Assembly (NCBI RefSeq): GCF_016526145.1 | Contig: NZ_JADDUE010000006.1 | Span: 1 to 64,000 of the forward strand | DNA from: Saccharopolyspora galaxeae | GTDB lineage: Bacteria; Actinomycetota; Actinomycetes; Mycobacteriales; Pseudonocardiaceae | Direction: 5' to 3' | DNA: 64,000 nt | Part shown: piece after piece, positions 3,387-59,852 of the stretch | Layout of the letters: every line of letters begins with the position of its first letter | Position numbering within the stretch: the first letter of the stretch is position 1 | Made by a program: the position numbers and the translations under genes | The notes under the pieces: generated by a model | Seen by the model: the letters and a program-made list of their open reading frames with translations, nothing else | The model's database searches: none | Told to the model about the DNA's origin: nothing

Positions 3387-4625
3387 TCAGGCCGCCGGCG
3401 GTTTGCCGAAACCGAGCTGCCAGACGTCGAGGTAGCCGGAGCGGAATCCGGCTTCGCTGTAGGCGAGGTAGAACTCCCACATCCGCCGGAACCGTTCGCC
3501 GAAGCCGAGCTCGGCGATCCGCTCCCGGTTCTCGATGAACCGGTTGCGCCAAGTGTGCAGGGTCGTGGCGTAGCTCGGGCCGAAGGAGTGGCGTTCGATA
3601 CCGCGCAGGCCGGTGTGCCGGCGCACGCATCGCTCGATCGCCTGCAGCGAGGGCAGTTCGCCGCCGGGGAAGATGTACTTGTGGATCCAGGTGCGGGAGC
3701 GGCGCGAGGCCAGCATCCGGTCGTGCGGCATGGTGATCGCCTGTAACCCGATGCGCCCGCCCGGCGCGAGCAGCCGGTCCAGGGCGCGGAAGTAGCCGGG
3801 CCAGTACTCGGCGCCGACTGCTTCGATCATCTCGACGCTGACGATCGCGTCGTAGCCGCCTTCGGCGTCGCGGTAGTCGCGCAGCTGCACGTCGACGCGG
3901 TCGGCGAGGCCCGCTTCGGCCAGCCGCTTCTGCGCGAGTTCGCGCTGCTCGGTGGACAGGGTCAGCGTCGTGACCTGCGCACCGCGCTCGGCCGCGCGCA
4001 GCGCGAGCGAGCCCCAGCCGGTGCCGATCTCCAGCAGCCGCGTGTCCGCACCGACCCCGGCGAGGTCCAGTACCGCGTCCAGCTTCGCCCGCTGGGCCGC
4101 TGCGAGGTCCCTGCCGGGCGCGAACAGGCCGGACGAGTAGGTCATCGTCTCGTCCAGGAACGCGGCGAACACGTCGTTGGACAGGTCGTAGTGCCGTTCG
4201 ATGTTGCGCCGCGAACCCGCGGCGGTGTTGCGCTCCGCGGCGAGCTTCGGCGGGTCGACCCACCGGCGCAGGCCTTGCAGCGGTTTCGGCACCAGCCGCG
4301 GGAGCCGTTCGGCGAACGGGGTGAGCAGGTCGGCGGGTTCCGGGCTCTCCCATTCGCCCGCCATGTACGACTCGCCGAAACCGATCTTGGAGTCGGCGCC
4401 GAGCCGGTGGAAGAACGCGGCCGGATCGGTGATCCGCATCAGCGGGGATCCTGCGCCGCCGCTGCCGAGCCGTTCGCCGCCCGCCAGCGCGATCTGCACC
4501 GGCAGGTCGCGCACGGCGTGCCGGAACAGCTTCTCGGCCAGGTAGGCGCGGGCGGGCGAGTCCGGCGCGGCTTCGAGCGCTTCCCACGGTGGGGTGCTGG
4601 TGGGCTGGTGCAGGGCGGTGCTCAT
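3387..4625 (-). CDS. Cyclopropane-fatty-acyl-phospholipid synthase-like methyltransferase (UfaA1-like)
   Basis: A 412-residue SAM-dependent methyltransferase that should modify unsaturated acyl chains of membrane phospholipids, giving cyclopropane or methyl-branched chains. The CFA-specific N-terminal part (about 1-140) is followed by the NIERHYDLSNDVF signature, the SAM loop LEIGTGWGS (about residue 205) and the C-terminal SYATTLHTWRNRF motif. It is equivalent in position to ufaA1 (Rv0447c) of M. tuberculosis. The ATG overlaps the DUF1365 stop as ATGA; the open frame upstream of it is a shadow. Whether the product is a cyclopropane or a 10-methyl branch cannot be told from sequence. Confidence 0.9.
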   Translation of the reverse strand: MSTALHQPTSTPPWEALEAAPDSPARAYLAEKLFRHAVRDLPVQIALAGGERLGSGGAGSPLMRITDPAAFFHRLGADSKIGFGESYMAGEWESPEPADLLTPFAERLPRLVPKPLQGLRRWVDPPKLAAERNTAAGSRRNIERHYDLSNDVFAAFLDETMTYSSGLFAPGRDLAAAQRAKLDAVLDLAGVGADTRLLEIGTGWGSLALRAAERGAQVTTLTLSTEQRELAQKRLAEAGLADRVDVQLRDYRDAEGGYDAIVSVEMIEAVGAEYWPGYFRALDRLLAPGGRIGLQAITMPHDRMLASRRSRTWIHKYIFPGGELPSLQAIERCVRRHTGLRGIERHSFGPSYATTLHTWRNRFIENRERIAELGFGERFRRMWEFYLAYSEAGFRSGYLDVWQLGFGKPPAA

Positions 4626-5377
4626 CGGATGCCTTCCTGGTGGACGTGCGGCTTTCGGGGCGCGATGCGAACTCCGCGCAGCCACAGCGCGATGCCGTGC
4701 CGCCGGATCAGCGCGGCGACGCGGTGCGGGAGCAGGGGGCGGCGCAGCAGCTCGCGCACGATCGCCGGCACGGTCGCGGGCCTTCGGCTTCCGGTGAGCA
4801 CGGCCGTCAGGCGCGGGCCGGACTCGTCGCGGAATCGGATGCGCACGTGGACGCGCTCGCCGGGCGGAGGGATCCGCATCTCGTAGTGGCCGTTCTCGGG
4901 CAGGAACGGGGAGACGTAGAAGTGCTTGCCGGTCTCGGCGCGGCCCTCCGCGTCCGGGTGCAGCAGGTAGCAGTGCCGCTCGCCGTAGGTGTTGTGCACC
5001 TCGGCGACCACGCACGCCTGCTCGCCGTCCGGGCGGTGGCACCAGTACACGGTGATCGGGTTGAACACGTACCCGAGCACGCGGGCGTGCGCGAGCATCA
5101 GGATGCGGCCGCCGCGCAGGTCGATGCCCTGCAGCCCGAGCCAGTGGTCCACGTTCGCGCGGATGCTGCGGTCCGGATCGCCGAGGTGGTCGCGTGCGTC
5201 GAAGCGGGCGAACGGCCGCAGCCACCTGGGCAGCCGCGGCAGTTCGTCGAGGTCGACCAGCCAGGTGTGCAGCCGGTGCCGGAAGCGGTTCGGCACGTCG
5301 CCGTGCCGGGTGTGCGAGACGGTGACGTCGTAGAGCGCTGGGGCGTCGCAGCGCACCGGGGCGGTGGGCACGGTCAC
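4622..5377 (-). CDS. DUF1365 family protein (Rv0448c-like)
   Basis: A 251-residue DUF1365 protein, a family regularly found between a CFA-type methyltransferase and an FAD amine-oxidase-like protein. Its biochemical role is not established; the company it keeps suggests fatty-acyl modification. Typical motifs are HTRHGDVPNRFRH near the N-terminus and YVFNPITVYWCH and the HNTYGERHCYLL stretch in the middle. The GTG at 5377 overlaps the stop of the upstream gene as GTGA; an adjacent GTG at 5380 is the alternative. Confidence 0.88.
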   Translation of the reverse strand: MTVPTAPVRCDAPALYDVTVSHTRHGDVPNRFRHRLHTWLVDLDELPRLPRWLRPFARFDARDHLGDPDRSIRANVDHWLGLQGIDLRGGRILMLAHARVLGYVFNPITVYWCHRPDGEQACVVAEVHNTYGERHCYLLHPDAEGRAETGKHFYVSPFLPENGHYEMRIPPPGERVHVRIRFRDESGPRLTAVLTGSRRPATVPAIVRELLRRPLLPHRVAALIRRHGIALWLRGVRIAPRKPHVHQEGIR

Positions 5378-6633
5378 CACCCCGCTCCGAACGCTTCGGC
5401 GGCCCGGACGCCGCTGGCGCAGCCGTCTTCGTGGAAGCCCCAGCCGTGGTAGGCGCCCGCGAACCTCGTGCGGTCGTCCCCGAGCCCCGGAAGAAGGCGT
5501 TGCGCTGCAACGGAATCCGGCGTGTAGATGGGATGCCGGTAGTGCATCCGGGCGAGTGTCCGGTCCGGACGGACCCGGCCTGCCGGGTTGAGCGTGACCA
5601 GGTAGTCCGCCGGTTCGGCCAGCCGCATCAGGCGGTTCATGTCGTAGCTGACCAGCACGTGCCCCGGATCCGCCGCGCAGCTGGGCTTGTGGTGGTTCCA
5701 GGACGCCCGCGCGCCGCCGCTGCGCGGCAGCACTGCCGGGTCGGTGTGCAGCCAGGTCTCGTTCTCGGAGTAGCCGAAGGAGCCGAGGACCTTCCGCTCC
5801 GCCGGGGTCGCGTCGGCCAGCAGCGCCAGGGCCTGGTCGGCGTGCGTGGCCAGCACCACCCGGTCGGCCAGGTGCGTGCGGTCGGCTTCGTCGCGGATCT
5901 GCACGTGGTCCTCCGCGCGGCGCACCGCGCGGACCGGGGTGTGCACTGTGGACAAACCTGCGGCTGCGCGCTGAACGTACTCGCGCGAGCCGCCTTCGAC
6001 GGTGCGCCAGGTGGGCGAGCCGGACACCGACAACATGCCGTGATGGCGCAGGAACTCGAAGAGGTACCGCGCCGGATAGCGCGCGCTGGTGGCGAAATCC
6101 GCCGACCACACCGCGGAAACCAGCGGCAGCGCGAAGTGGTCCACGAAGTAGCGGGAAAATCCCTGCGTGCTCAGGAAATCGCCGAGGGTGACCTCGTCCG
6201 CCTGCGCGCCGGGAGCGTCCAGCAGCCGGTTCGCCGACCGGTGGAAGCGCGGGACCTGGGCCAGCATCCGCAGGTAGCGGGCGCGGAAAGCGTTGCCGCG
6301 CTGGGCGAACAGCCCGCCTGCGCGCTTCGCGCCCGCGTACTCGAGCCCGCAGCCGTCGCAGGACACGCTCATCGACATCTCGGTTTCGCGGGTGCGCACC
6401 CCGAGTTCGCCGAACAACCGCAGCAGATTCGGGTAGGTCCGTTCGTTGTGCACGATGAACCCGCTGTCCACCGGCAGCACTCGGCCGTCCGAAGTGGTCA
6501 GACGGTGCGTGTGCGCGTGCCCGCCGAGCCGGTCGTCGGCCTCGAACAGCAGCACGTCGTAGCGCCGCCGCAGCAGGTGCGCGGCGGTGAGGCCGGAGAC
6601 TCCGGCGCCGATCACGGCTACCGTCCCGGTCAT
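5374..6633 (-). CDS. FAD-dependent amine-oxidase-like protein (Rv0449c-like)
   Basis: A 419-residue flavoprotein with an N-terminal dinucleotide-binding GAGVSGLTAAHLL (about residues 9-21), an acidic end to the second strand (LLFEADDRLGGH) and a C-terminal FAD-contacting GYHGWGFHEDG-like segment (AYHGWGFHEDG). It belongs to the NAD(P)/FAD oxidoreductases found with CFA synthases and DUF1365 proteins, where it is thought to act on acyl chains, perhaps reducing a methylene intermediate; that is an inference from context. The ATG overlaps the stop of the alpha/beta hydrolase by 4 bases. Confidence 0.9.
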   Translation of the reverse strand: MTGTVAVIGAGVSGLTAAHLLRRRYDVLLFEADDRLGGHAHTHRLTTSDGRVLPVDSGFIVHNERTYPNLLRLFGELGVRTRETEMSMSVSCDGCGLEYAGAKRAGGLFAQRGNAFRARYLRMLAQVPRFHRSANRLLDAPGAQADEVTLGDFLSTQGFSRYFVDHFALPLVSAVWSADFATSARYPARYLFEFLRHHGMLSVSGSPTWRTVEGGSREYVQRAAAGLSTVHTPVRAVRRAEDHVQIRDEADRTHLADRVVLATHADQALALLADATPAERKVLGSFGYSENETWLHTDPAVLPRSGGARASWNHHKPSCAADPGHVLVSYDMNRLMRLAEPADYLVTLNPAGRVRPDRTLARMHYRHPIYTPDSVAAQRLLPGLGDDRTRFAGAYHGWGFHEDGCASGVRAAEAFGAGW

Positions 6634-7274
6634 CGCACCGGCTCCTCGCCCGCGAGCAGCGCGCGGACGAACCGCCTGGTCAGCGCGTCCCATTCGGGCC
6701 TGCGCCGGAGCATGGCGTGCCCCGAGCGGGGAACTCGCCGGTAGGTCACCGCTGGCGCGTCCGGTTGCCGCCGCGCGCGCACCGCGTAGTCGGCCGACGC
6801 GGCCGCGGAGGTCACCCGGTCCTCGTCGCCGTGCGCGATCAGCACCGGCTTTCCGCGCAACTGCTCGACCGGTTCGTCCTGCTCGACCCACGGAGCCAGC
6901 GCGCAGACCCCGCGCACACCGGGCTCGCCCGCGAGCCGCAGCGCGACCCGGCCGCCGAGGGAGTGCCCGACCAGCACGATCCCGGCCTGCGGGTGCTCCC
7001 GCTGGATCCGCTCCAGCGCCCAGCGCGCGTCCGCGACGGCGTCCAGGTCCGGTTCGTTCCAGCCCCGGAAGCGGTTGCGCAGCAGCCACACCTGCGCGGA
7101 GCAGCCGGCGCCTGCGCTGTGCAGCGACCGCGCCACGGCACGCATCCGCAGGTAGGCGAGCTGGTGGCCGCGTGCGGGGGCGTGGCTGGTGGCCCGCCCG
7201 CCGTGCAGCACCAGCACGATCGTGCCGGGGGTGTCCGCGCGGGAGCGCAGGACCCGCAGCTTGGGGGATTGCAT
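6630..7274 (-). CDS. Small alpha/beta hydrolase
   Basis: A 214-residue single-domain hydrolase and first gene of the SigK operon. The oxyanion region is VLHGGRA (about 23-29), the nucleophile elbow GHSLGG is at about residue 103, the acid is in HGDEDRV and the catalytic His in SGHAML. The substrate is unknown; linkage to lipid genes suggests an ester or thioester. The ATG follows 120 bases of intergenic DNA shared with a divergent CFA-synthase gene, which probably holds the promoter for the whole operon. Confidence 0.85.
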   Translation of the reverse strand: MQSPKLRVLRSRADTPGTIVLVLHGGRATSHAPARGHQLAYLRMRAVARSLHSAGAGCSAQVWLLRNRFRGWNEPDLDAVADARWALERIQREHPQAGIVLVGHSLGGRVALRLAGEPGVRGVCALAPWVEQDEPVEQLRGKPVLIAHGDEDRVTSAAASADYAVRARRQPDAPAVTYRRVPRSGHAMLRRRPEWDALTRRFVRALLAGEEPVR

Positions 7275-7394
7275 ACCCGTTGTTCGCAGCCGCCGGGCGT
7301 TCGGGCTGGTCGTTGTCGGATGGATCACAGCGAGCCGTCCGGGGCGCCGCGGGCTCCGAACCACCCGCGATCGAAACGCTCGGGGAAGGTGTGC

Positions 7395-8684
7395 GTGTTG
7401 CGTGCTCGGCAGGCTGCGGAACGGATCGAAGGCGTGCTGCGGGACCTCGTGGGAGTGCCGTTGCCGGTTGGCGTGGTGGCCTGGGACGGCAGCACCGCCG
7501 GTCCGCGCAGCGGGCCGCGGGTGGTGCTGCGCAGGCGGCGCGCGTTGCGGCATCTGCTGTTCAGCCCGGGTGAGCTCGGGCTGGCGCGGGCGTTCGTCTC
7601 CGGCGATCTCGACGTGGAAGGGGATCTCGCGGAAGGGTTGCGCCGTTGCTGGGCGGCGTTCCGCGAGCAGCGGGTGGCCAAGCCGCGGTTCGGGCCTTCG
7701 GCGTGGCGGCGGATGCTGGGCGAGGCCGTCGCGCTCGGCGCGATCGGCCCGCGGCCGAAGCCGCCCGCCAGCGAGGCCCGCCCGAGCGGTGCGCTGCACA
7801 GCCGCCGCCGGGACCGCTCGGTGATCGCGCACCACTACGACACCGGCAACGAGTTCTACGAGCTGCTGCTGGATCCGAGCATGGCCTACTCCTGCGGGTA
7901 CTTCACCGGCGACGGCGGGCTCGCCGAGGCGCAGCGGGCCAAGCTCGATCTGATCTGCCGCAAGCTCGGGCTAACCGCGGGGATGCGGCTGCTGGACGTC
8001 GGTTGCGGCTGGGGTTCGCTGATCCTGCACGCCGCGCGGCACTACGGGGTGCACGCCACCGGCGTGACGCTCTCGGCGCAGCAGGCCGGGCACGTGCAGC
8101 AGCGCATCGAGGAATCGGGGCTGTGCGGCCAGGTTCACGTGCGGCTGCAGGACTACCGGGAGGTCCGGGATGTCGAGCCGTTCGACGCGGTGGCCTCGAT
8201 CGAAATGGGCGAGCACGTCGGCACGGACCAGTACCCGATCTACGCGGCCGCGCTGCACCGGCTGGCGCGGCCCGGTGCGCGGGTGCTCGTCCAGCAGATG
8301 TCCCGCGCCGGGACCGCGCCCGGCGGCGGCGCGTTCATCGAGTCCTACATCGCGCCGGACATGAGCATGGTGCCGGTCGGGCGCACGCTGGGATTGCTGG
8401 AAGACGCGGGGCTGGAGATCCGGGACGTGGAGGCGATGCGGGAGCACTACGTGCGCACCGTCGAAGCGTGGGCGCGCACGCTGGACGAGAACTGGGACGC
8501 CGCAGTCGAGCTGGTCGGGCCGGAGCAGGCCAGGGTGTGGCGGCTGTACCTGGCGGGCGGCGGACTCGCGTTCGAGGAGAACCGCATGGGAGTCAACCAG
8601 ATCCTCGCCGTTCGGCCCACTGTGGACGGACGCAGCGGGCTGCCCGTCGCCGGGCGCTCGACCGTGCTGGAGGGTGTGCGATGA
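7395..8684 (+). CDS. Second cyclopropane-fatty-acyl-phospholipid synthase-like methyltransferase
   Basis: A 429-residue CFA-synthase-family protein, divergent from the operon that carries the first copy. It has the N-terminal lipid-binding region, VIAHHYDTGNEFYELLLD, the SAM loop LLDVGCGWGSL, the conserved EMGEHVG and the C-terminal YLAGGGLAFEE motif. The GTG at 7395 was chosen because GGGGAAGG precedes it by 5 bases. An upstream in-frame ATG at 7320 lacks a ribosome site and would crowd the divergent promoter. Its stop overlaps the next ATG by 4 bases. Having two family members here suggests different acyl substrates or products. Confidence 0.88.
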   Translation: MLRARQAAERIEGVLRDLVGVPLPVGVVAWDGSTAGPRSGPRVVLRRRRALRHLLFSPGELGLARAFVSGDLDVEGDLAEGLRRCWAAFREQRVAKPRFGPSAWRRMLGEAVALGAIGPRPKPPASEARPSGALHSRRRDRSVIAHHYDTGNEFYELLLDPSMAYSCGYFTGDGGLAEAQRAKLDLICRKLGLTAGMRLLDVGCGWGSLILHAARHYGVHATGVTLSAQQAGHVQQRIEESGLCGQVHVRLQDYREVRDVEPFDAVASIEMGEHVGTDQYPIYAAALHRLARPGARVLVQQMSRAGTAPGGGAFIESYIAPDMSMVPVGRTLGLLEDAGLEIRDVEAMREHYVRTVEAWARTLDENWDAAVELVGPEQARVWRLYLAGGGLAFEENRMGVNQILAVRPTVDGRSGLPVAGRSTVLEGVR

Positions 8685-9454
8685 GCCCGTTCGCCGCCGC
8701 ACCGCTGGCCGCGCTGGCCACGGTCCTGGCCAGCTACGGCATCGCCCGCCTGCGCGGGCGCTGGGACACGATCGACAGCGTCTGGGGTGCCGGTTTCGCG
8801 GTGATCGCGCTGGTCACCGCGCCGTTCGGAGCCGGAAGCCCGGCCGGGTGGGCCGTCGTGGCGCTCACCGCCGTGTGGGGTGTGCGGCTGTCGGTGCACC
8901 TGCACACCCGCAACGCGGGGAAGCCGGAAGACCGCCGCTACCGGGAGATGGCGCAGCGCTACGGCGATCGCGTCGGGGTGCTGATGTTCGTGCGGGTCTA
9001 CCTCGTGCAGGGCGTCGTGCTGTGGTTCGTTTCGCTGCCCGTGCAGGCCGCGGTGGCCGCCGAGCCCGCGCTGCCGGGCGCGGCGGTGTTCGCGGTGCTC
9101 GGCGGCTCGGTGTGGCTGATCGGCTTCGTCTTCGAGGCGGTCGGGGATCGGCAGCTGCGCAGGTTCAAAGCGGACCCCGCCAACGAGAACGCGGTGCTCG
9201 ACACCGGGCTTTGGCGCTACACGCGGCATCCGAACTACTTCGGGGACGCCTGCGTGTGGTGGGGGCTGTACCTGCTGGCGTGCCAGAGCTTCCTCGGTGT
9301 GGCGACCGTGCTCTCACCGGTGCTGATGACGTGGCTGCTCGCGCGCGGCACCGGCAAGCCGATGCTGGAACGCGGCCTGGCCGAACGCCGTCCCGCCTAC
9401 GCCGATTACGTCGCGCGCACCAGCGGTTTCCTCCCCCTCCCGCCGCGGCGGTGA
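8681..9454 (+). CDS. DUF1295 membrane oxidoreductase (Rv0446c-like)
   Basis: A 257-residue integral membrane protein of the DUF1295/steroid 5-alpha-reductase-like superfamily, with about six or seven hydrophobic segments. The C-terminal cofactor signature LWRYTRHPNYFGD (about residue 180) and the ending YADYVARTSGF are typical. M. tuberculosis has a homologue (Rv0446c) between sigK and ufaA1, so it belongs with this lipid locus, perhaps reducing an acyl or prenyl double bond; the substrate is not known. Its stop lies one base from the stop of the convergent zinc-ribbon gene. Confidence 0.87.
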   Translation: MSPFAAAPLAALATVLASYGIARLRGRWDTIDSVWGAGFAVIALVTAPFGAGSPAGWAVVALTAVWGVRLSVHLHTRNAGKPEDRRYREMAQRYGDRVGVLMFVRVYLVQGVVLWFVSLPVQAAVAAEPALPGAAVFAVLGGSVWLIGFVFEAVGDRQLRRFKADPANENAVLDTGLWRYTRHPNYFGDACVWWGLYLLACQSFLGVATVLSPVLMTWLLARGTGKPMLERGLAERRPAYADYVARTSGFLPLPPRR

Positions 9455-11251: not shown

Positions 11252-12277
11252 TCAGTACTTCCTGCTGGTGAGCATCCTGGTCAAGCCGGACAGCTCCGCC
11301 GCCACCTCCGGTGCCGGGTCGGCCAGCCGCAGCTGCTCGTGCGCCTCCCGCTCGCACCGCTCGACGCGTTGCAGGCACCATTCCCGGCCGCCGGCCTCGG
11401 TCACCAGCTCGGCCGCCCGCACCGCGTCCTTTTCGGACAGTTCGGTGGCGCGCTCGTAGAGCTCGGCGAGTTCGCCGCCCGCCGCGGTGCCGGAGTTCAA
11501 CGCGGCCACCACCGGCAGCGACTTCTTCCGGTTCCGCAGGTCCGAATGCACCGGTTTCCCGGTCACCTCCGGATCGCCCCAAATGCCCAGCAGGTCGTCC
11601 ACCAGCTGGAACGCCAGGCCGAGCCGGGTGCCGAAGCGCCGCAACCGCTGCGCCCGCTCCGGCCCGGCACCGCCGAACGAAGCGCCGAGCGCGCAACTGC
11701 AACCCAGCAGCGAAGCCGTTTTCGCGCTCACCATCGTCAAGCACTCCGGCAGCGCCACATCGGAGCGGCGCTCGAACGACATGTCCGCGCTCTGCCCGTC
11801 CACCAGGTTCAGCACCGTGCTGTTGAGCTCCTGCAACCCGGACATCGCAGCCGGGTGCCCGCTGGCGGTGAGCACATCCGCGGCCAGCGTCAGCAGCGCG
11901 TCACCGGCGAGGATCGCCGCACCCGAACCGAACACCCGCCACGCCGTGGGCCGGTGCCTGCGGGTCAGGTCGCCGTCCATCACGTCGTCGTGCAGCAGTG
12001 AGAAGTTGTGCACCAGCTCCACCGCCACCGCCGCGGGCAGCGCCGCCTCGGCGTCCGCGCCGACGGCACGCGCCGAGAGCAGCACCAGGTTCGGCCGGAT
12101 CGCCTTGCCCGCCGGAGCCTCCACCGGTGCGCCGTGCTCGTCCCACCAGCCGAAGTGGTGACCGACGATGCGGCTCATCGACTCCGGCAGCGTGCCCACG
12201 GCCGCACGCAGCGCGGGGTCCAGCAGGGCGCGCCCGGCCGCGAGGGTGTCGGGCACGCCGTCGACTCCCGTGCTCAT
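11252..12277 (-). CDS. Polyprenyl diphosphate synthase, candidate encapsulin cargo
   Basis: A 341-residue trans-isoprenyl diphosphate synthase, condensing isopentenyl and allylic diphosphates into a longer prenyl diphosphate. The first aspartate-rich motif is DDVMD (97-101) with Phe five residues before it. The second is DDLLG (227-231) with Gly in place of the last Asp, followed by D235. K-GKPVHSDLRNRKKSLP is the usual downstream segment. Product chain length cannot be assigned. The AAGGGA ribosome site overlaps the end of the preceding encapsulin gene, 13 bases away, so the two are coupled. Polyprenyl transferases are an established cargo type of Family 2B encapsulins, which supports encapsulation. 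There is no long disordered N-terminal leader. Confidence 0.92.
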   Translation of the reverse strand: MSTGVDGVPDTLAAGRALLDPALRAAVGTLPESMSRIVGHHFGWWDEHGAPVEAPAGKAIRPNLVLLSARAVGADAEAALPAAVAVELVHNFSLLHDDVMDGDLTRRHRPTAWRVFGSGAAILAGDALLTLAADVLTASGHPAAMSGLQELNSTVLNLVDGQSADMSFERRSDVALPECLTMVSAKTASLLGCSCALGASFGGAGPERAQRLRRFGTRLGLAFQLVDDLLGIWGDPEVTGKPVHSDLRNRKKSLPVVAALNSGTAAGGELAELYERATELSEKDAVRAAELVTEAGGREWCLQRVERCEREAHEQLRLADPAPEVAAELSGLTRMLTSRKY

Positions 12278-12290
12278 CCGCGAAGTCCCT

Positions 12291-13697
12291 TCACCGCGTG
12301 GTCTCGACGTGTTCGAGCACCCCGAGCGCGTCCGGCACCAGCACCGCCGCCGAGTAGTAGGTGCTGACCAGGTAGGAGCTCACCGCGTGCTCGTCGAGGT
12401 TCATGAACCGCGCGTTCAGGCCCGGCTCGAGCTCGTCCGGGATGCCGGTCTGGTGCAGACCGATCACGCCGCTGTCCTCGGCGCCGGTGCGCATCGCAAG
12501 GATCGAGGTGCTCCCGGACTCGTCGATCGGAATCTTGTTGCACGGCAGCAGCGGAACTCCGCGCCAGCCGGTCAACCGCGCGCCGTCGGTTTCGACGGTG
12601 TCCGGCACCACGCCGCGCTTGTTGCACTCGCGGCCGAACGCCGCGATCGCCTTGGGATGCGCGGCGAACAGCTTCGTCCCGCGCCGCCGGGACAGCAGCT
12701 CGTCCAGGTCGTCCGGCGCGGGCGGGCCGGTGCGGGTGTGGATCCGCTGCGAGAGGTCGGCGTTGTGCAGCAGTCCGAAATCGCGGCTGTTGACCAGGTC
12801 GTTCTCCTGCCGTTCGCGCAGCGCCTGGATGGTCAGCCGCAGCTGCTGCTCGGTCTGGTCCATCGGCGTGCTGTAGAGGTCGGTGACCCGCGTGTGCACC
12901 CGCAGGATGCTTTGCGCGACGGCCAGTTCGTACTCGCGCGGCGCGGTCTCGTAGTCGACGAAGGTGCCGCCGAGCAGCTGTTCCCCGGAATGCCCCGAGT
13001 TGATGCCGATCTCGGCCTCGCCGTGCTTGTTCTGCGCCTTGCGCGGCCGCGACCCGACCTGCTCCAGATGTGCCCGCAGCGAATCCGTGCGGTCGCGGAT
13101 CTCCTGCAGCACCGGGGAACGCAGCGCCAGCACCGTGCACGCGGTGACGGCTTTGAGATCGCACCGCCAGTTGCCGTCCTCGCCGGTCAGCACCTCGTCG
13201 CCGATGTGGTCGCCGTCGGCGATCATGCCGAGCACCGCGTCGTCGCCGTACTGGCCGCGGGCGAGCTTGTGCACCTTGCCGTGCGCGACCAGCAGCAGCC
13301 GGTCGATCGGCTGGCCCGCCTCGGCGATCACGTCGCCCGCGGCGTACTCGTGCTGGGTGAACCGGTCGGCCAGCGCGCCGAGCGCGCCGGAGTCGTCGAA
13401 TCCGCGCAGCGCGGGCAGTTCCCGCAGCTCCTGCGGCACGACCTGCACGTGCGCGCCGGTGTTGACGAAGGTGATGCGCCCGTCGCCGAGCGTGTAGGTC
13501 AACCGCCGGTTCACCCGGTACGTGCCCGCGGTGGCCTCCACCCACGGCAGCTTGCGCAGCAGCCAGCGGGAACTGATGCCCTGCATCTGCGGCGGAGTCT
13601 TGGTGGTGGTCGCCAGGTTCCGCGCCGCGGCGGTGCCCAGGCTCAGCGCCGGGCGGTCGGTCTGCTGCCGGTCTGCGGTGTCGATCTCGCGGGTCAT
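12291..13697 (-). CDS. Family 2B encapsulin shell protein B (EshA-like, with cyclic-nucleotide-binding-like insert)
   Basis: A 468-residue protein with an HK97-type shell fold interrupted by a cyclic-nucleotide-binding-like domain, the arrangement that defines Family 2B encapsulins and Streptomyces EshA. The conserved N-terminal arm has [20 protein letters not shown] (about 20-39). The insert covers about residues 88-205 ([20 protein letters not shown]). The C-terminal shell part contains [43 protein letters not shown] and [20 protein letters not shown]. The position of the usual phosphate-binding Arg in the insert is Trp ([10 protein letters not shown]). The ATG has CGGGAG upstream; 268 bases separate it from the first shell gene. 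Shell identity is confident; ligand binding is not. Confidence 0.93.
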
Positions 13698-13800
13698 GCG
13701 GCTCCCGTCGGTTCCGAGCCTGTTCTGGATCATGTTGCGTAGGTGGTCGGGTAGCGGTGCCGGTCGCTCCGGTGCTGGGAGCGGCTGCGTGTTCGCAACG

Positions 13801-13849
13801 AGTGACCGCACCGTTCGCCCGAACTATTGGGGCGAAGCGGCCGTTCACT
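13801..13849. repeat. Dispersed palindromic hairpin, copy 3
   Basis: An imperfect inverted repeat (AGTGACCGCACCGTTCG against CGAAGCGGCCGTTCACT) of the same family as 9742 and 26031. It lies between the two encapsulin genes and could attenuate transcription from the first to the second. Confidence 0.75.
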
Positions 13850-13877
13850 CCGGATGCCGCTTCCCGCCGACCACCGG

Positions 13878-13913
13878 CCACAGTGGACATCGCTGTACCA
13901 GTCCACAGTGGAT
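13878..13913. promoter_or_regulatory. Doubled palindrome upstream of encapsulin B
   Basis: Two copies of the near-palindrome CCACAGTGGA (13878-13887 and 13903-13912) sit 25 bases apart in the gap between the two shell genes. Paired copies on a similar helix face look like a regulator site, but single copies of the same word also occur inside genes across the window, so it may be a genome-wide motif instead. Confidence 0.35.
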
Positions 13914-13965
13914 AGATATCGGCCGGGGCCCGCGGCCGAGGCCGGTGGCCCCGGCCGCCCGGGTT

Positions 13966-15372
13966 TCAGCCGTCGCGTCCGACCTCGACGTTCTCCAGCA
14001 CGCCGAGCGCGTCCGGGGTCAGCACCGCCGCCGAGTAGTAGGTGCTGACCAGGTAGGAGATCACCGCGCTCTCGTTGATCCCCATGAACCGCACCGACAG
14101 GCCCGGCTGGTACTCGTCCGGGATGCCGGTCTGGTGCAGGCCCACCACGCCCTGGTTCTGCTCGCCCGCGCGCAGCAGCATGATCGAGCTCGACCGCGTC
14201 TCGGACACGCCGATCTTGTTGCAGGGCAGCAGCGGCACACCGCGCCACGCCGGGAAGTGGTGCCCGCCGAACTCCACGTTCTGCGGGTACAGGCCGCGGT
14301 GGCTGCACTCGCGGCCGAACGCCGCGATCGCGCGCGGGTGCGCCAGGAAGAAGCTGGGTTCCTTCCACACCGTGGACAGCAGCTCGTCCATGTCGTCGGG
14401 CGTGGGCGGGCCGGTGCGGGTGTGGATGCGCTGCGCGAGGTCGGCGTTGTGCAGCAGCCCGAAGTCGCGGTTGTTGATCAGCTCCTGCTCCTGGCGCTCG
14501 CGCAGCGCCTCGATGGTCAGCCGCAGCTGCTGCTCGGTCTGGTTCATCGGCTGGTTGTAGAGGTCTGCGACGCGGCTGTGCACCCGCAGCACCGTCTGCG
14601 CGACGCTGAGCTCGTACTCCCGCGGCGAGAGCTCGTAATCCACGTAGGTGCCGGCGAGTTCGGTCTCGCCGACGTGCCCGGAGCTGATGTCGATCTCGGC
14701 CTCGCCGTGCTCGTTCTGCGGCTTCGGCCGGTCGCTCAGCGCCTGCTGGATGTGCGTGCGCAGCGACTCCGCCGCGTTCATCTCCTGCAGGCTCTGGTGC
14801 CGCAGGGTGAGCACGGTGCAGCCGGTCACGGCCTTGACGGTGTGCTTCCACGAGCCGTCCGCGGAGGCCAGCGCCTCCGCGCCGAAGTACTCCCCGCTGG
14901 CCATCACGCCGAGCACGGTGTCGTCGCCGTACTCCCCGCGGCCGATCTTGTTGGCCTTGCCGTGCGCGAGCAGGAACACCTGGTCCACCGGCTGCCCGGA
15001 CTCGACGATCACGTCGCCGGGGCCGAACTCCTGCTGCACGAAGCGGTCCGCGAGCGCGCCCAGCGCCGACTCGTCGTCGAACCCGCGCAGCAGCGGCAGT
15101 TCGCGCAGCTCCTGCGGGATGACGCGGACTTCGCTGCCGGTGTTGGTGCAGGTGATCCGGCCGTCGCCGAGGGTGTAGGTGAGCCGGCGGTTGACCCGGT
15201 AGGTGCCGCCTGCGGCCTGCGTCCAGGGCAGCATCTTCAGCAGCCACCGCGAGGTGACGCCCTGCATCTGCGGCGGGGTCTTCGTCGTGGTCGCCAGGTT
15301 CCGCGCCGCTGCGGTGCCCAGGCTCAGCTGCGGCCGCTCGTTCTCATCGACACCCGTATCCGCCACGGTCAC
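13966..15372 (-). CDS. Family 2B encapsulin shell protein A (EshA-like, with cyclic-nucleotide-binding-like insert)
   Basis: The first of two tandem shell genes, also 468 residues from the GTG at 15372, and aligned with shell protein B over its whole length without large gaps. It shares the [20 protein letters not shown] arm, an insert at about 85-205 ([20 protein letters not shown]) and the HK97-type blocks [30 protein letters not shown] and [19 protein letters not shown]. They differ most in the insert and in the loop after [10 protein letters not shown], so the shell may be a two-component assembly. The start is less certain: GTGs at 15381 and 15366 are alternatives. Nothing long enough to be a gene lies directly upstream. 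Confidence 0.92.
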
Positions 15373-46980: not shown

Positions 46981-48285
46981 GTGACTGAACGGACCGATCC
47001 GCGGACCGCGGTGCTGTTGCGGCGCTGGCTGGCCGAGACGCACACGCCGGTCGCCGATGGGCCGCTGAAGGTCACCATCGGGCCGTTGCGGTTCAGCACC
47101 GAGATCACCTACCGCTCGCCCACGGGTGCGCACGGCTTCGGTCCGATCCGCGTCGCGGACTCCGGTGCGCTCGCCGAGTCCGCCCTGCTGGCAGCGGCCT
47201 GTTCGGCGGACGCGCGCGGGCGCGCCACCGCGGACGCCCCGATCAACGCCGAGAGCAGCGGCACGCTGGTGGACTGGCTGCTGCAGGCCGTCGGCAACGG
47301 GGCGGTGGATCCGCTGGCGGGCGACCACGAGGTCGACGTGCTCGCAGACGGTGTGTCCTCGGCCGACGAGGCACGTCGCTGGCTGGCCACGCACGTGGAG
47401 GGCACGCTGACCCCCGCATTGCGCAACGTCGACGGAAAGGCCGACCTGGCCGACGTCACCGCGCGCCTGCTCAGCGCCCGGTCGCTGGCCGCGATCGGAC
47501 GGTTCGGGCTGCGCGGCGTCGCCGACGAGCAGGAGCTGCTGGAGCTGCTGACCGCGGCGCTGACCGCGATCCGCGACACCTACCCGGAGACCGAGCGGAT
47601 CGTGCGGCACTGGCTCACCAGCACCACGCTCACCGACTTCGCGGTGCTCAACGGGTCCGGGCTGCGCTACCGCAACGGCGACAGGGTCGAGGTGCGGCCG
47701 GTGCACCACGAGGTGCCGAACCCGTTGCGCGCCAAGGTGAACGACACCGACGTGCCGGGCGTGCCGATCCCGGAGCTGGGCGAGGGCTGGTCGTTGCGGC
47801 CGGTTCGGCTGGACTCCGACGATCCGGCGCTGGTGCACCGCTGGATGAACGCCGAGCACGTGGCGACCAACTGGAACCAGGCGTGGTCGTTGCGCCGCTG
47901 GACCGACGAGCTCGGCACCCAGCTGGCCGGTGAGCATTCGATGCCGTGCCTGGTCAGCCGGGACGGCCGGGAGGTCGCTTACGTCGAGCTGTACCGGGTG
48001 CTGCGGGACAAGCTTTCGGCCTGCTACCCGTTCGAGCCGAACGACCTGGGCGTGCACATCGCGATCGGGGAGTCCGACGCCGTCGGCCGCGGGCTCGGTT
48101 CGTCGCTGCTGGCAGCGGTGGCGCAGGGGTTGCTCGGCGCCGATCAGGACTGCCGCCGGGTGGTCGCCGAGCCGAATGTCCACAATGGAGCTTCGGTGGC
48201 TGCGTTCGGCAAGGGCGGGTTCGGTCGCGCTCGCGAAGTCGGTCTGCCCGGCAAGAACTCCGCGCTGATGATCCACCCGCGCTGA
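46981..48285 (+). CDS. Siderophore hydroxamate acetyltransferase (IucB/RhbD/Mcd-like), with N-terminal extension
   Basis: A 434-residue protein. The C-terminal 180 residues (about 255-434) are an acetyltransferase of the siderophore type: LRPVRLDSDDPALVHRWMNAEHV, FEPNDLGVHIAIG, GRGLGSSLLAAV and RVVAEPNVHN. It should acylate N-hydroxyornithine. The N-terminal 250 residues are unrecognised but recall the malonyl-CoA decarboxylase/acetyltransferase (Mcd) of erythrochelin synthesis in Saccharopolyspora erythraea; that is a resemblance in layout only. AGAGGAG and an iron box precede the GTG. It lies directly upstream of the NRPS gene. Confidence 0.8.
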   Translation: MTERTDPRTAVLLRRWLAETHTPVADGPLKVTIGPLRFSTEITYRSPTGAHGFGPIRVADSGALAESALLAAACSADARGRATADAPINAESSGTLVDWLLQAVGNGAVDPLAGDHEVDVLADGVSSADEARRWLATHVEGTLTPALRNVDGKADLADVTARLLSARSLAAIGRFGLRGVADEQELLELLTAALTAIRDTYPETERIVRHWLTSTTLTDFAVLNGSGLRYRNGDRVEVRPVHHEVPNPLRAKVNDTDVPGVPIPELGEGWSLRPVRLDSDDPALVHRWMNAEHVATNWNQAWSLRRWTDELGTQLAGEHSMPCLVSRDGREVAYVELYRVLRDKLSACYPFEPNDLGVHIAIGESDAVGRGLGSSLLAAVAQGLLGADQDCRRVVAEPNVHNGASVAAFGKGGFGRAREVGLPGKNSALMIHPR

Positions 48286-48466
48286 TCGGCGGCGAGCGCG
48301 ACCTCCGTCCCAAGGGGCCGGTCGAAGTCGGCGCTCGCTCCTCGTGCGCCGGCGATTGGGCCGAATGGAGCAGGTGCTGCGGGCCGCGCCCGCGGGCGTT
48401 GCGTCTGCGCAGGACTGAGAGGTAAAGCACGAGCCATGCGTTCTGGTGCGCGGCGCGCGGGTGAAA

Positions 48467-48483
48467 TAAGGTTAGCCTTACTT
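48467..48483 (+). promoter_or_regulatory. Iron box before the NRPS operon
   Basis: TAAGGTTAGCCTTACTT contains perfect arms TAAGG/CCTTA and matches the IdeR/DmdR consensus well. It lies 26 bases before the NRPS ATG, so iron-loaded regulator would shut off the NRPS-MbtH-exporter operon. Confidence 0.8.
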
Positions 48484-48508
48484 CGTCCGTGTGACCGTGG
48501 GGAGAACG

Positions 48509-55845
<7,337 letters not shown>

Positions 55846-55846
<1 letters not shown>

Positions 55847-56043
55847 TGACCAACCCGTTCGACGACCCCGACGGAACCTTCTACGCCCTGGTCAACGACG
55901 AGGACCAGTACTCGCTGTGGCCCGCCCGCATCGAGATCCCGGCGGGCTGGTCGATCGCGCACGGACCGGCGCCCAGACCCGAATGCCTCGAACACATCGA
56001 GGTGCATTGGACCGACATCCGCCCAGCCCGCAACGGCGCGTGA
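55846..56043 (+). CDS. MbtH-like NRPS accessory protein
   Basis: A 65-residue MbtH-family protein, which binds and activates adenylation domains. The signature residues NDEDQYSLWP, PAGWSIAHGP and the final WTDIRP are intact. Its ATG overlaps the NRPS stop by one base (TGATG), fixing the partnership. Confidence 0.96.
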
Positions 56044-56056
56044 ACCAGGACCGGCA

Positions 56057-57478
56057 GTGCGCTTGAACGACCCGAAGATCGCGGTGTGCGTCGTCTACGT
56101 CGCGGCGATGTTCATGAACGGCATGGACGCCACCATCGTCAACGTGGCGTTGCCCGCGATCGGCGACGAGTTCGCCGTGGCGCCGAGCGCGACCAGCGCG
56201 ATCAACGTGGGCTACCTCGTCAGCCTCGCGGTGTGCATTCCGATGTCCGGGTGGCTGGGGGACCGGTTCGGCACGAAGAAGGTCTTCCTCGGCGCGTTCG
56301 GCGCGTTCGTGCTGGCCTCCGCGCTGTGCGGGGCGGCGCAGGACATCACCCAGCTCACCGCGGCCCGCGTGCTGCAAGGCGCGGGCGGCGGGGTGCTGAG
56401 CCCGGTCGCGCTGACCATGCTGTTCCGCGCCTACCCGCCGCAGGAGCGGATCCGGTTGTCCGGCGTGCTCGTGATCCCGACCGCGATCGCGCCCGCGCTG
56501 GGGCCGGTGCTCGGCGGGTTGTTCGTGGAGCACTTGACCTGGCGGTGGGGCTTCTTCGTGAACGTGCCGGTCGGGGTGCTGGCGCTGATCTACGGCGCGG
56601 TCAAGCTGACCGAGCACGTGGAGTCGGTGCACAAGCGGTTCGACGTGCTCGGGTTCGCGCTGGCCGCGCCGGGCCTGGGGCTGCTGATGTACGCGCTGGA
56701 CACGGTTTCCGCGCACGGTTTCACCTCGCCGCAATTCCTGGCCTGCGGCGTGGCCGGGCTGGTCTGCCTGCTGGTGCTGGTCCTGGCGCAGCTGCGCACC
56801 CGGCAACCGATGCTGGACGTGCGGCTGTTCGCCGACGCGTCGTTCCGCCGGGCGAGCCTGATCCTGGCGTTCTGCGTGGCCGGGTTCCTCGGCACGCTCT
56901 ACGGCTTCACGTTGATGTACCAGTCCGGGATGGGTGCTTCGGCGCAGGAGACCGGGCTGGTCACGTTGCCGAAGGCGATCGGGCTGATGCTGGCTTCGCG
57001 GGCGGTGACCTGGGCGCACCCGAAGCTGGGGCCGCGGGTGCTGATCGCGCTGGCGATGCTCGGTGCCGCGGTGTCGTTCGCGGCGATGAACCTGGTGACC
57101 GGGCCGGTCTCGGCCTCGGTCGTGCAGTTCACCTCGGGTTTCTTCGTCGGGGCCGGTTCGATCGAACTCCAGGTGGTCGCGTTCGCCACGATCAGCGCGA
57201 CCGCCACCGGCGGGGCTTCCACCTTGTTCAACGTGCAGCGCCAGGTCGGTTCGGCGCTGGGTGTGGCGGTGACCGCCGGGGTGCTGGCGATCGGCGGCGC
57301 AGGTGCGCACGGGTCGCTGGGCCCATACCATGCCGCGATGCTGGTGTCGGCGGGGTTTGCGCTGGTCGGAGTGCTGATCGCGCTGCGCATCAAGACCCCG
57401 TCCGAGCCGCGGTCCGACGCCGTGACCGGAGCCGGTTCGGGCAGCGGCGCGGGCCCGGTGCCCGCTGGCCGCAACTGA
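56057..57478 (+). CDS. MFS exporter, EmrB/QacA (DHA2) type
   Basis: A 473-residue transporter with about 14 membrane segments. It shows MDATIVNVALPAI in segment 1, SGWLGDRFGTKKVF after segment 2 and RVLQGAGGGVLSPVAL in segment 4, as in drug and siderophore exporters. It lies 13 bases after the MbtH gene in the iron-boxed operon, so it probably exports the siderophore. Confidence 0.88.
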   Translation: MRLNDPKIAVCVVYVAAMFMNGMDATIVNVALPAIGDEFAVAPSATSAINVGYLVSLAVCIPMSGWLGDRFGTKKVFLGAFGAFVLASALCGAAQDITQLTAARVLQGAGGGVLSPVALTMLFRAYPPQERIRLSGVLVIPTAIAPALGPVLGGLFVEHLTWRWGFFVNVPVGVLALIYGAVKLTEHVESVHKRFDVLGFALAAPGLGLLMYALDTVSAHGFTSPQFLACGVAGLVCLLVLVLAQLRTRQPMLDVRLFADASFRRASLILAFCVAGFLGTLYGFTLMYQSGMGASAQETGLVTLPKAIGLMLASRAVTWAHPKLGPRVLIALAMLGAAVSFAAMNLVTGPVSASVVQFTSGFFVGAGSIELQVVAFATISATATGGASTLFNVQRQVGSALGVAVTAGVLAIGGAGAHGSLGPYHAAMLVSAGFALVGVLIALRIKTPSEPRSDAVTGAGSGSGAGPVPAGRN

Positions 57479-57548
57479 TCGGCGCCACCCGGATGTGCGG
57501 CGAGGCGAGATCTGGCCCACCGGGGGGAGACATCATCGAAATCTGTAG

Positions 57549-57567
57549 TTAGGCTAGCCTTAACTAA
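57549..57567 (+). promoter_or_regulatory. Iron box before the reductase-hydroxylase operon
   Basis: TTAGGCTAGCCTTAACTAA matches the IdeR/DmdR consensus at about 15 of 19 positions, and its core TTAGGCTAGCC is a near-perfect palindrome. It lies 42 bases before the ATG at 57609. Best of the three boxes. Confidence 0.85.
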
Positions 57568-57608
57568 TTGATCCTTCTGGGAACGGTGAGGAAGGAACGC
57601 CAGGTCAG

Positions 57609-58445
57609 ATGACGACAGCGGACCGAGCCCGACGCGGCGGCCACCCGCGTCCGCCCACCCGCACGCTGGAAGTGCTGCGGACCGCGGACCTGACGCCGTC
57701 GATGCGGCGGATCACCCTCGGCGGCGACGAGATCGCCGGGTTCCGGGACGAGCACACCGGCCCGAACATCAAGGTGTTCGTCCCCCAGCGCGGTCAGCGG
57801 CGGCCGGTCCTGCCCGTCTTCGACCACGACGCCGGTAGGCACGTCTGGCCCGAGGCGCACGAGCGCCCGACCATGCGCACCTACACGGTCCGCCGCTACG
57901 ACGAGGCGCGCGGCGAGCTCGACGTCGATTTCGTGATGCACGGCGAGCACGGCGTGGCCTCCTCCTGGGCGCGCGGAGCCGCCCCGGGCGACTACCTCGG
58001 CGTGCAGGGCCCCGGCGGCCGGACGCCGCGCGCGGCCGACTGGTACCTGCTGATCGGCGACGAGACCGCGCTGCCAGCCATTTCGGCGATCATCGAGGGG
58101 CTGCCGCTGACCGCCAGCGGCGAGGCGTTCCTGGAGGTCTCCGACAGCGCCGAGCAGCAGCACATCGAATGCCCGCCGAACCTCAACCTGAACTGGCTGC
58201 ACCGCGACGGCGTGCCCGCGGGCCGCTCGACCAAGCTCGGCGATGCCGTCCGCGAGCTGGACATCCCGCCGCAGCGGGACGTTTCCGCGTGGGTCTCCGG
58301 TGAATCCGGGGTGGTCCGCGGCATCCGCAGGCACCTGCGCCGGGACCGCGGGCTCGACGCCGCATCGGTGCTGGCGATCGGCTACTGGAAAGCCGGAATG
58401 GTGGAAACCGATTACCACGACCAGTACAACCACGACCGCGACTGA
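57609..58445 (+). CDS. Siderophore-interacting flavoprotein (ferric reductase)
   Basis: A 278-residue protein of the SIP/ViuB family, reducing ferric siderophores in the cytoplasm to release iron. Seen: the FAD-binding RTYTVRRYD (about 93-101), GPGG after the FAD domain, GDETALPAISAII for NAD(P)H, and the C-terminal GYWKAGMVETDYHD. It follows an iron box and precedes the hydroxylase gene by 63 bases. Confidence 0.92.
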   Translation: MTTADRARRGGHPRPPTRTLEVLRTADLTPSMRRITLGGDEIAGFRDEHTGPNIKVFVPQRGQRRPVLPVFDHDAGRHVWPEAHERPTMRTYTVRRYDEARGELDVDFVMHGEHGVASSWARGAAPGDYLGVQGPGGRTPRAADWYLLIGDETALPAISAIIEGLPLTASGEAFLEVSDSAEQQHIECPPNLNLNWLHRDGVPAGRSTKLGDAVRELDIPPQRDVSAWVSGESGVVRGIRRHLRRDRGLDAASVLAIGYWKAGMVETDYHDQYNHDRD

Positions 58446-58508
58446 ACGGTCTGCGGACCACTCCGTGCCCGCGCGCGAAACCCGCCGGGTACCGGCGAAG
58501 GGACAACC

Positions 58509-59852
58509 GTGTCAACGGCTTCGATCCACTTACAAGGCCCGGTCCACGACGTGCTGGGCGTCGGTTTCGGCCCGTCCAACCTGGCGCTGGCCGTCGCGGT
58601 CGAGGAGCACAACCGCCGGTGCGCCGAGCAGGAGCAGCTGACCGCAGGCTTCGTGGAACGCCAGCCGCGGTTCGGCTGGCACCGCGGGATGCTCATCGAG
58701 GGCACCACGATGCAGGTCTCGTTCCTCAAGGACCTGGTCACGATGCGGGATCCGGCCAGCGACTTCTCGTTCCTGTCCTACCTGCACGGCAAGGACCGGC
58801 TGGTCGACTTCATCAACCACAAGACGATGTTCCCCACCCGCGTCGAATACCACGACTACCTGGAGTGGGCCGCGGGCAGGCTCGAGCACCTGGTGCAGTA
58901 CGACGCCGAAGTCATCGACGTGCGGCCGGTGCAGCAGGGCGAGCTGTTCGAGGTGCTGGTGCGGCACGGTTCCGGGCAGGTCACCGCGCGGCGGGCGCGC
59001 AACGTCGTGGTCGCGGTCGGGCTGGAGGCTAACCTGCCGCCCGGCGCGGAACGCGGCGACCGGGTCTGGCACAACCTCGAACTGCTGCACCGCATCGGCG
59101 AACTGGAGGGCGCCGATCCGAAGCGGTTCACCATCGTCGGCGCCGGGCAGAGCGCCGCCGAGGTCACCGATTACCTGCACCGCACTTTCACCGGCGCCGA
59201 GGTCTGCTCGGTGTTCGGCCGCTACGGGCACACACCTGCCGATGACAGCCCGTTCGCGAACCGGATCTTCGACCCGGAGGCGGTGGACCACTTCTACAGC
59301 TCGCCGACCGGGGTGAAGCAGCTGCTGATGGACTACCACCGGAACACGAACTACTCGGTGGTGGACCTGGAGCTGATCGAGCAGCTCTACGCCCGCGTCT
59401 ACCAGGAGAAGGTGCAGGGCAAGGAACGGCTGCGGATGCTGAACGCCTCGCGCGTCGTGGACGTCGAGGAAGGCGCGGACGGCGTCGCGGTCACCGTGGA
59501 GTTCATGCCCACCGGCGAGCGGATGGTGCTGGACTCGGACGTGCTGGTGTACGCGACCGGCTGCCTGCCGGGCGATCCGGGGCGGGCGCTCGGGCGTACT
59601 TGGGACGAGTGCCTGCGCGACGCCGAGGGCCAGGTGCAGGTGGACCGCGACTACCGGGTGCGGACTTCGGACGAGGTGCGCGGCGGGATCTACCTGCAAG
59701 GCGGGACCGAGCACACGCACGGGATCACTTCGTCGCTGCTGTCCAACGGCGCGGTCCGCGCGGGCGACATCCGCGATTCGATCCTGCGCCACCGCAACGC
59801 GCCGCGTTCCGCGCCGCGGCGGGACTACGCCCTGTCCGGCGATCCCTGCTGA
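58509..59852 (+). CDS. L-ornithine N5-monooxygenase (siderophore)
   Basis: A 447-residue flavin enzyme hydroxylating the side-chain amine of ornithine (or lysine) for a hydroxamate group. The FAD motif GVGFGPSNLALA (about 17-28), the conserved MQVSFLKDLVTMRDP, the NADPH motif IVGAGQSAAEV (about 207) and the late YATGCLPG are intact, as in CchB/PvdA/EtcB proteins. AAGGGA precedes the GTG. With the acetyltransferase at 46981 it would make N5-acyl-N5-hydroxyornithine for the NRPS. Confidence 0.93.
   Translation: MSTASIHLQGPVHDVLGVGFGPSNLALAVAVEEHNRRCAEQEQLTAGFVERQPRFGWHRGMLIEGTTMQVSFLKDLVTMRDPASDFSFLSYLHGKDRLVDFINHKTMFPTRVEYHDYLEWAAGRLEHLVQYDAEVIDVRPVQQGELFEVLVRHGSGQVTARRARNVVVAVGLEANLPPGAERGDRVWHNLELLHRIGELEGADPKRFTIVGAGQSAAEVTDYLHRTFTGAEVCSVFGRYGHTPADDSPFANRIFDPEAVDHFYSSPTGVKQLLMDYHRNTNYSVVDLELIEQLYARVYQEKVQGKERLRMLNASRVVDVEEGADGVAVTVEFMPTGERMVLDSDVLVYATGCLPGDPGRALGRTWDECLRDAEGQVQVDRDYRVRTSDEVRGGIYLQGGTEHTHGITSSLLSNGAVRAGDIRDSILRHRNAPRSAPRRDYALSGDPC

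Follow-up and report, generated by a model that had tools for sequence, protein, structure and literature searches.

A two-shell Family 2B encapsulin operon with a prenyl diphosphate synthase in Saccharopolyspora galaxeae and the probable loss of its terpene cyclase

The stretch analysed here (the window) comprises 64,000 nucleotides of the Saccharopolyspora galaxeae genome, positions 1 to 64,000 of contig NZ_JADDUE010000006.1. On its minus strand, positions 11252-15372 carry, in reading order, two Family 2B encapsulin shell genes, Enc1 and Enc2, and the gene of a prenyl diphosphate synthase (PT). We consider it probable that this is an operon of a known type, two shells with PT, whose products form a mixed shell with PT associated, and that a terpene cyclase was lost from it by descent from an Enc1-cyclase-Enc2-PT arrangement. 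The gene set itself is of known kind; what is new here is the history of the cyclase within the genus. By homology with the pair from S. lydicus, Enc1 and Enc2 would co-assemble into a single mixed T=1 shell with their cyclic-nucleotide-binding-like (cNMP-like) domains outside. PT would be cargo or shell-associated, as the operon structure and an NCBIfam cargo model suggest, and would make a short prenyl diphosphate, perhaps C15-C20, at or in the shell. Comparison with related genomes points to Enc1-cyclase-Enc2-PT as the ancestral operon; the cyclase would have lost its catalytic motifs in the genus and the gene would be gone in the window's species, shells and PT being kept. Because the cyclase is gone while shells and PT are kept, the prenyl diphosphate would have to serve a user elsewhere, either a cyclase encoded at another place or another pathway.

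By profile searches, both shell proteins carry the HK97-type SrpI-like shell domain: PF19307 gave 465.7 bits for Enc1 and 434 bits for Enc2 (cut-off 22.8), and the NCBIfam model encap_f2b was matched over its whole length with 776.9 and 746.8 bits (cut-off 400). A cNMP-binding-like insert is present in each of them (PF00027, cNMP_binding; 52.5 and 45 bits, cut-off 27.5), its E-loop position being taken from the family. Furthermore, the solved Family 2B shells 9bix, 9bje and 9bhu align by sequence across nearly the full length of the two proteins, and 6x8m was also among the PDB shells matched by sequence. These scores, together with the coordinates and lengths (Table 1), agree with an earlier account made from the letters alone (the sequence-only reading), which had described two 468-residue Family 2B shell genes with a cNMP-like insert. 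The chosen starts are consistent, VTVAD for Enc1 and MTRE for Enc2, in all six genomes of the genus, and Enc1 and Enc2 are the sole PF19307 shell genes of the 6.4-Mb genome.

In the available part of PMC12407261, the diagnostic motif 1 reads T337VWK340 in Sl-Enc1 and R340RRK343 in Sl-Enc2, the two S. lydicus proteins that co-assemble into mixed shells. The structures 9bje and 9bix can be assigned to Sl-Enc1 and Sl-Enc2 by their TVWK and RRRK motifs. In the window, the motif is TVWK in Enc1 and RRRG in Enc2, the last residue of the latter departing from the published RRRK. If a two-component operon is defined by a pair of shell genes no more than 10 kb apart, of which motif 1 marks one as Enc1 and the other as Enc2, the window holds such an operon. 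Of 39 fetched operons, each with a first and a second shell, 32 first shells and 29 second shells allowed the motif pattern to be read; VWK was found in 31 of the 32 first shells, and RRR or KRR in all 29 second shells. From homology with the S. lydicus system we infer a mixed two-component shell, and we regard this step as sound. A recent tandem duplication of the shell gene was rejected, since each copy is nearest, in the shell tree, to the same-position copy in other genomes of the genus and motif 1 differs between the two.

PT starts 13 bases downstream of the Enc2 stop. This confirms the tight coupling of the second shell gene to an isoprenyl diphosphate synthase that had been read from the sequence, and PT scores above the cut-offs of PF00348 (205 bits, cut-off 27) and of NF041169, the NCBIfam model of encapsulin-cargo prenyltransferases (478.3 bits, cut-off 450). 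These matches place PT in the family of encapsulin-cargo prenyl diphosphate synthases. Among function-named models the nearest is IdsB geranylgeranyl diphosphate synthase, which PT matches with 345 bits, without reaching the cut-off of 475. Of solved structures, 3NF2 is the closest to PT, and a literature search on 3NF2 returned nothing.

The gene layout is ordinary in kind, and the operon is one more case of a published class. The portions available of two papers report 503 two-component Family 2B operons with five cargo types, prenyltransferases included (PMC12407261), and 900 prenyltransferase operons (PMC8346489). The window is like the S. lydicus Sl-Enc1/Sl-Enc2 locus, as far as the text at hand of PMC12407261 describes it, in its tandem shells of equal domain layout, Enc1 first, with TVWK versus RRR-; however, S. 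lydicus has a xylulose kinase where the window has PT, and assembly was shown there, whereas the window is known from sequence. With the published prenyltransferase and terpene cyclase/prenyltransferase (TC/PT) operon types the window shares a PT gene directly downstream of Enc2 (PMC8346489, PMC12407261, both in part). A scan of named genomes gave 536 PT relatives, of which the best 80 were kept, several of their loci being cut by contig ends. Two shells with PT and no detected cyclase were the commonest form (44 of these best 80 of 536). The order shell-cyclase-shell-PT was found at 10 of the 80 loci, once with a further cyclase on the opposite strand; one shell with PT and PT only accounted for 12 each, and two shells with PT and a cyclase beyond, or PT with a cyclase, for one each. 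The sequence-only reading had proposed a nanocompartment with a two-component shell around prenyl diphosphate synthesis and, seeing paired shells and PT without a cyclase nearby, had asked what product leaves the shell. The identity of the genes, the HK97-type shell and the Enc1/Enc2 pair hold by profiles and motif, but the layout is not unusual, being shared by these 44 loci. There are two further two-shell arrangements. At L109:6129-11008, two shells are accompanied by a tagged single-domain cyclase and by a gene of 286 residues that weakly matches a methyltransferase; L101:5723-10940 holds a divergent shell pair with a cyclase nearby.

The genus sample comprised six genomes, that of the window, a second one of the same species (G046) and four others. 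Enc1-Enc2-PT is found in both genomes of the window's species, with shells and PT intact; Enc1-cyclase-Enc2-PT is found in all four genomes outside it, the cyclase being two-domain and geosmin-synthase-like, with a likely start 6 bases past the Enc1 stop. TC/PT operons can likewise hold a cyclase between Enc1 and Enc2, according to the parts available of PMC8346489 and PMC12407261. The lack of a terpene cyclase nearby, already noted from the sequence, was borne out: no PF19086 cyclase lies in the window (contig C31), the three PF19086 matches of the genome being on contigs C28 (two) and C1. Downstream of the operon, five of the six genomes have an M20 peptidase gene and a DUF1295 gene, and L046 has a different gene there before the contig end. 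A concatenated Enc1+Enc2+PT tree of 39 operons, unrooted, joins the six operons of the genus at 100/100. The ratio of nonsynonymous to synonymous substitution rates (dN/dS) between the two genomes of the window's species is 0.08 for Enc1, 0.18 for Enc2 and 0.11 for PT, on few changes, and it ranges from 0.09 to 0.19 for shells and PT among the four other genomes.

The sequence GPTGLGTSAAR has been suggested as a targeting tag of geosmin-synthase-like cyclases in the part available of PMC8346489. An alignment with the geosmin synthase of the window's genome and with the intact operon cyclase L061 shows that the four operon cyclases of the genus lack FDDHFLE in the N-domain, both NSE triads and the GPTGLGT motif, DDH being kept in the C-domain. 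Class I cyclases require these metal-binding motifs. In a pattern search of 20 operons with a cyclase, only these four showed no NSE triad in any domain; the two-domain cyclases of L103, L104 and L105 have the triad in one domain only. In having neither NSE triads nor tags, the cyclases of the genus differ from the TC/PT types, so far as the accessible text of the two papers describes these. Plain pseudogenes are not favoured, because all four cyclases keep open frames of 708-722 codons (stop included) and the bootstrapped 95% limits of dN/dS stay below 1 in the three pairs so treated (0.20-0.37, 0.30-0.48 and 0.42-0.62). Over all six pairs, the cyclase dN/dS is 0.28-0.51, whereas the shell and PT genes of these four genomes stay at 0.09-0.19. 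That no stop interrupts the frames says little by itself: when one pair was simulated under neutrality, stops averaged 2.96 and the lowest count was 0. Taken together, the operon cyclase of the genus is constrained though probably inactive. A structure predicted for one of these dead-looking cyclases (six sequences; mean predicted local distance difference test score, pLDDT, 73.8) matched 5dz2, the N-terminal domain of geosmin synthase, with an E value of 2.4e-12, and the geosmin synthase fold seems to survive in it.

Over the 39 operons, the concatenated tree implies seven changes of cyclase state, six of them forced by starred branches, and a tree of PT only implies five, two of them forced. 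Gain or loss of the cyclase is, by these trees, recurrent. The operon cyclases of the genus group with those of L103-L105 (94/95, not starred); in the shell tree, L103-L105 and the operons of the genus fall within one section of 15 rows. By phmmer, the operon cyclases of the genus score higher with geosmin synthase than with the C1 cyclase. Relocation of the cyclase within the genome was rejected, since the approximately unbiased test refuses a tree in which the operon cyclases join the two standalone geosmin synthases, that of the window's genome and that of G079 (p-AU 0.0002). The data suggest vertical inheritance and then cyclase loss in the window's species as the simplest reading.

Several points weigh against loss of a cyclase from a mixed-shell operon of this kind. 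The trees cannot separate gain from loss: long branches, the unrooted tree and the missing scar allow a later gain, and the cyclase-less layout is the commonest one among the best 80 of 536 named relatives. No clear cyclase remnant, and hence no scar, was found in the 268-base Enc1-Enc2 spacer when it was aligned locally with the sequence between the shell genes of the other genomes. In 23 of 24 such alignments, made with the spacer of the window's genome or with that of G046, the score stayed within the range of the spacer's own shuffles; the lone excess, the window spacer with the last 300 bases of the G101 inter-shell region, scored 28 against a shuffle maximum of 27. That the operons occupy one locus is borne out by the downstream genes only; upstream of Enc1, the window's species and the others have different neighbours. 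Measured against G101, dN/dS on the window side is 0.32 for Enc2 and 0.34 for PT, compared with 0.17 and 0.15 for the pair G079-G101, but the flanking M20 gene rises likewise (0.34 on the window side, 0.18 for the other pair). As regards the shell pair, the first shell of L103 bears the Enc2 motif (RRRK), and across the family Enc1 and Enc2 are not cleanly separated into two clades (six changes, five forced). As regards PT, the available text of PMC8346489 ascribes to encapsulin prenyltransferases a disordered N-terminal domain of 50-100 residues and reports no targeting motif for them. Unlike the prenyltransferase and TC/PT types, the window has no cyclase and its PT has no such domain, NF041169 spanning residues 10-340 of 341 and leaving 9 before; PT bears no cargo tag either. 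Because both the tag and the long disordered N-terminus are lacking, enclosure of PT within the shell is uncertain.

If the cyclase was indeed lost, the user of the PT product has to be sought, and two answers compete. It is quite possible, though we would not bet on it, that PT is the sole cargo and that the shell serves to store, channel or regulate prenyl diphosphate for menaquinone, carotenoid or another terpenoid, geosmin being unrelated. The predominance of cyclase-less two-shell PT operons speaks for this, and in 12 of the 17 genomes outside the genus with a fetched operon of this form the exact tag is missing (it is present in five). In addition, the genome encodes five further prenyl diphosphate synthases, and PT is therefore probably not needed for housekeeping. 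On the other hand, the four other genomes of the genus have a two-domain cyclase between their shell genes, and cyclases hold this position in 16 further operons, of other genera.

The other answer, which we rate about the same, is a cyclase acting in trans: the geosmin synthase encoded on contig C28 would enter the mixed shell by two GPTGLGTSAAR tags, PT would feed it farnesyl diphosphate, and geosmin would leave. The cyclases of the genome are this geosmin-synthase-like protein (C28:158002-160251) and one other PF19086 cyclase on C1. The C28 protein bears the tag between its domains and near its C-terminus, both places where geosmin-synthase-like cargo cyclases have it (PMC8346489, in part; NF041168), and nowhere else in the genome is the tag pattern matched exactly; unlike in those systems, the gene of the C28 protein lies on a separate contig, away from the shells. 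On NF041168, the model of encapsulin-cargo terpene cyclases, the protein reaches 1195.5 bits, narrowly missing the cut-off of 1200. In the cyclase tree, the rows nearest to it after the G079 copy include L117, L118 and L119, where cyclase and shell gene are no more than 2.3 kb apart. We also sought GPTGLGTxAA as a DNA pattern in 200 family genomes, grouped by 2B shell as read from tables. The pattern was found in 50 of them: 49 belong to the 130 genomes whose 2B shell passes the cut-off, and one to the 70 others. A reversed control pattern matched in 8 of the 200 genomes, and the single tag without a 2B shell may therefore be due to chance. The N-extension of both shell proteins resembles GPTGLGTSAAR (6 of 11 positions identical in Enc1), a likeness reached by 0.6% of shuffles in a test made after it was seen; cargo tag and shell N-arm might share one binding site.

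The association of geosmin synthase with shells was further evaluated in a class sample of 296 genomes (E <= 1e-100 for geosmin synthase, E <= 1e-90 for Family 2 shells). Geosmin synthase was found in 67 genomes and a Family 2 shell in 82 (78 over the model cut-off); 66 have both, 16 the shell only and 213 neither. In the 67th geosmin-synthase genome, G298, the shell gene is truncated at a contig edge; a PT-like frame comes after it, and the geosmin synthase is 2.4 kb away from this shell gene. A full-length 2B match is present in 63 of the 67. The geosmin synthase lies within 10 kb of a shell gene in 32 and farther away or on another contig in 35, some of these being fragmented assemblies; however, 26 of the 35 are of one genus, which limits their independence, and a shared life style could account for the link. 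A loose form of the tag occurs in 24 of the 30 best-scoring geosmin synthases and is absent from six. None of 40 family genomes lacking Family 2B shells yielded a geosmin synthase, at a query and threshold that recovered the gene of the window's genome and 66 others in the class sample, and no open frame of these 40 holds two PF19086 matches (10 of the 40 have some PF19086 match; four control genomes were positive). A geosmin synthase in trans cannot be the general answer for cyclase-less operons, because 12 of the 17 genomes just mentioned have no exact motif. For the window's genome, the trans-encoded geosmin synthase nevertheless seems the most attractive candidate user of the PT product, at a confidence well below even. 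In the literature searched, unlinked geosmin synthases were not found treated as encapsulin cargo; no search was aimed at dead cyclases in operons of this kind. Six genomes of one other family (G215, G254, G286, G340, G350 and G360) have the geosmin synthase itself between two shell genes. At G218:C12:466473-469660, an open frame of 365 residues that matches the shell model, with the first 208 model positions missing in the main stretch, adjoins a geosmin synthase; this shell is perhaps Family 2A-like with geosmin cargo.

A bolder and rather unlikely extension is that the compartment outlived its own cyclase, which was dead but constrained, perhaps as structural cargo, and then lost; the shell would now serve the tagged geosmin synthase, and geosmin synthase would be an obligate encapsulin cargo in Actinomycetes even when unlinked. 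If this were true, soil would owe its smell to a virus-like protein shell in which geosmin is made or through which it is released. The interest of the system lies in dead and absent cyclases within one genus and intact ones in other genera, together with the strong link between geosmin synthase and shell. Related operons with an intact, an apparently dead or an absent cyclase form a natural experiment on the roles of the second shell and of the synthase, and the co-occurrence of geosmin synthase and Family 2 shell, linked or not, makes the question of the Family 2B cargo testable by gene deletion. Decay of the whole operon, with shells and PT on their way out after cyclase loss, is very improbable: the motif-less cyclases of the other genomes do evolve faster, but the three window genes are intact, with their motifs present, and dN/dS of shells and PT is low both within the species and in the four other genomes.

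Table 1. Coordinates of the operon features in the window and of the inter-shell cyclases in the four other genomes of the genus
Feature	Position	Strand	Remarks
Enc1, Family 2B encapsulin shell protein	13966-15372	-	468 aa, GTG start; PF19307, PF00027 stretch 114-198, encap_f2b; motif 1 TVWK
Enc2, Family 2B encapsulin shell protein	12291-13697	-	468 aa, ATG start; PF19307, PF00027 stretch 116-202, encap_f2b; motif 1 RRRG
PT, prenyl diphosphate synthase	11252-12277	-	341 aa, ATG start; PF00348, NF041169; motifs FSLLHDDVMD and DDLLGIWGD
Enc1-Enc2 spacer	13698-13965	-	268 bp; cyclase slot in four other genomes of the genus; strong folding, z -4.58
Two-domain cyclase between Enc1 and Enc2	L043:11209-13329		no NSE triad or tag
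Two-domain cyclase between Enc1 and Enc2	L044:7066-9228		no NSE triad or tag
Two-domain cyclase between Enc1 and Enc2	L045:10395-12557		no NSE triad or tag
Two-domain cyclase between Enc1 and Enc2	L046:6064-8226		no NSE triad or tag

The Enc1-Enc2 spacer folds better than all of its 200 shuffles. A GC-rich hairpin lies directly past the Enc1 stop, and two copies of TCCACTGTGG were seen by eye; the spacer could govern how much Enc2 is made relative to Enc1, or contain a promoter. Elsewhere in the window, positions 3387-9454 hold two cyclopropane-fatty-acid-synthase-like genes with DUF1365, amine oxidase and DUF1295 genes; five of the six genomes of the genus keep the DUF1295 gene close to their encapsulin operon. 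Positions 47011-59852 look, by eye from the translations and without a family search, like a nonribosomal peptide siderophore cluster, with a 2445-aa synthetase, a small MbtH-like gene, an exporter, and siderophore-reductase-like and N-hydroxylase-like genes. A UbiA-family prenyltransferase gene lies at the window end (63144-63998).

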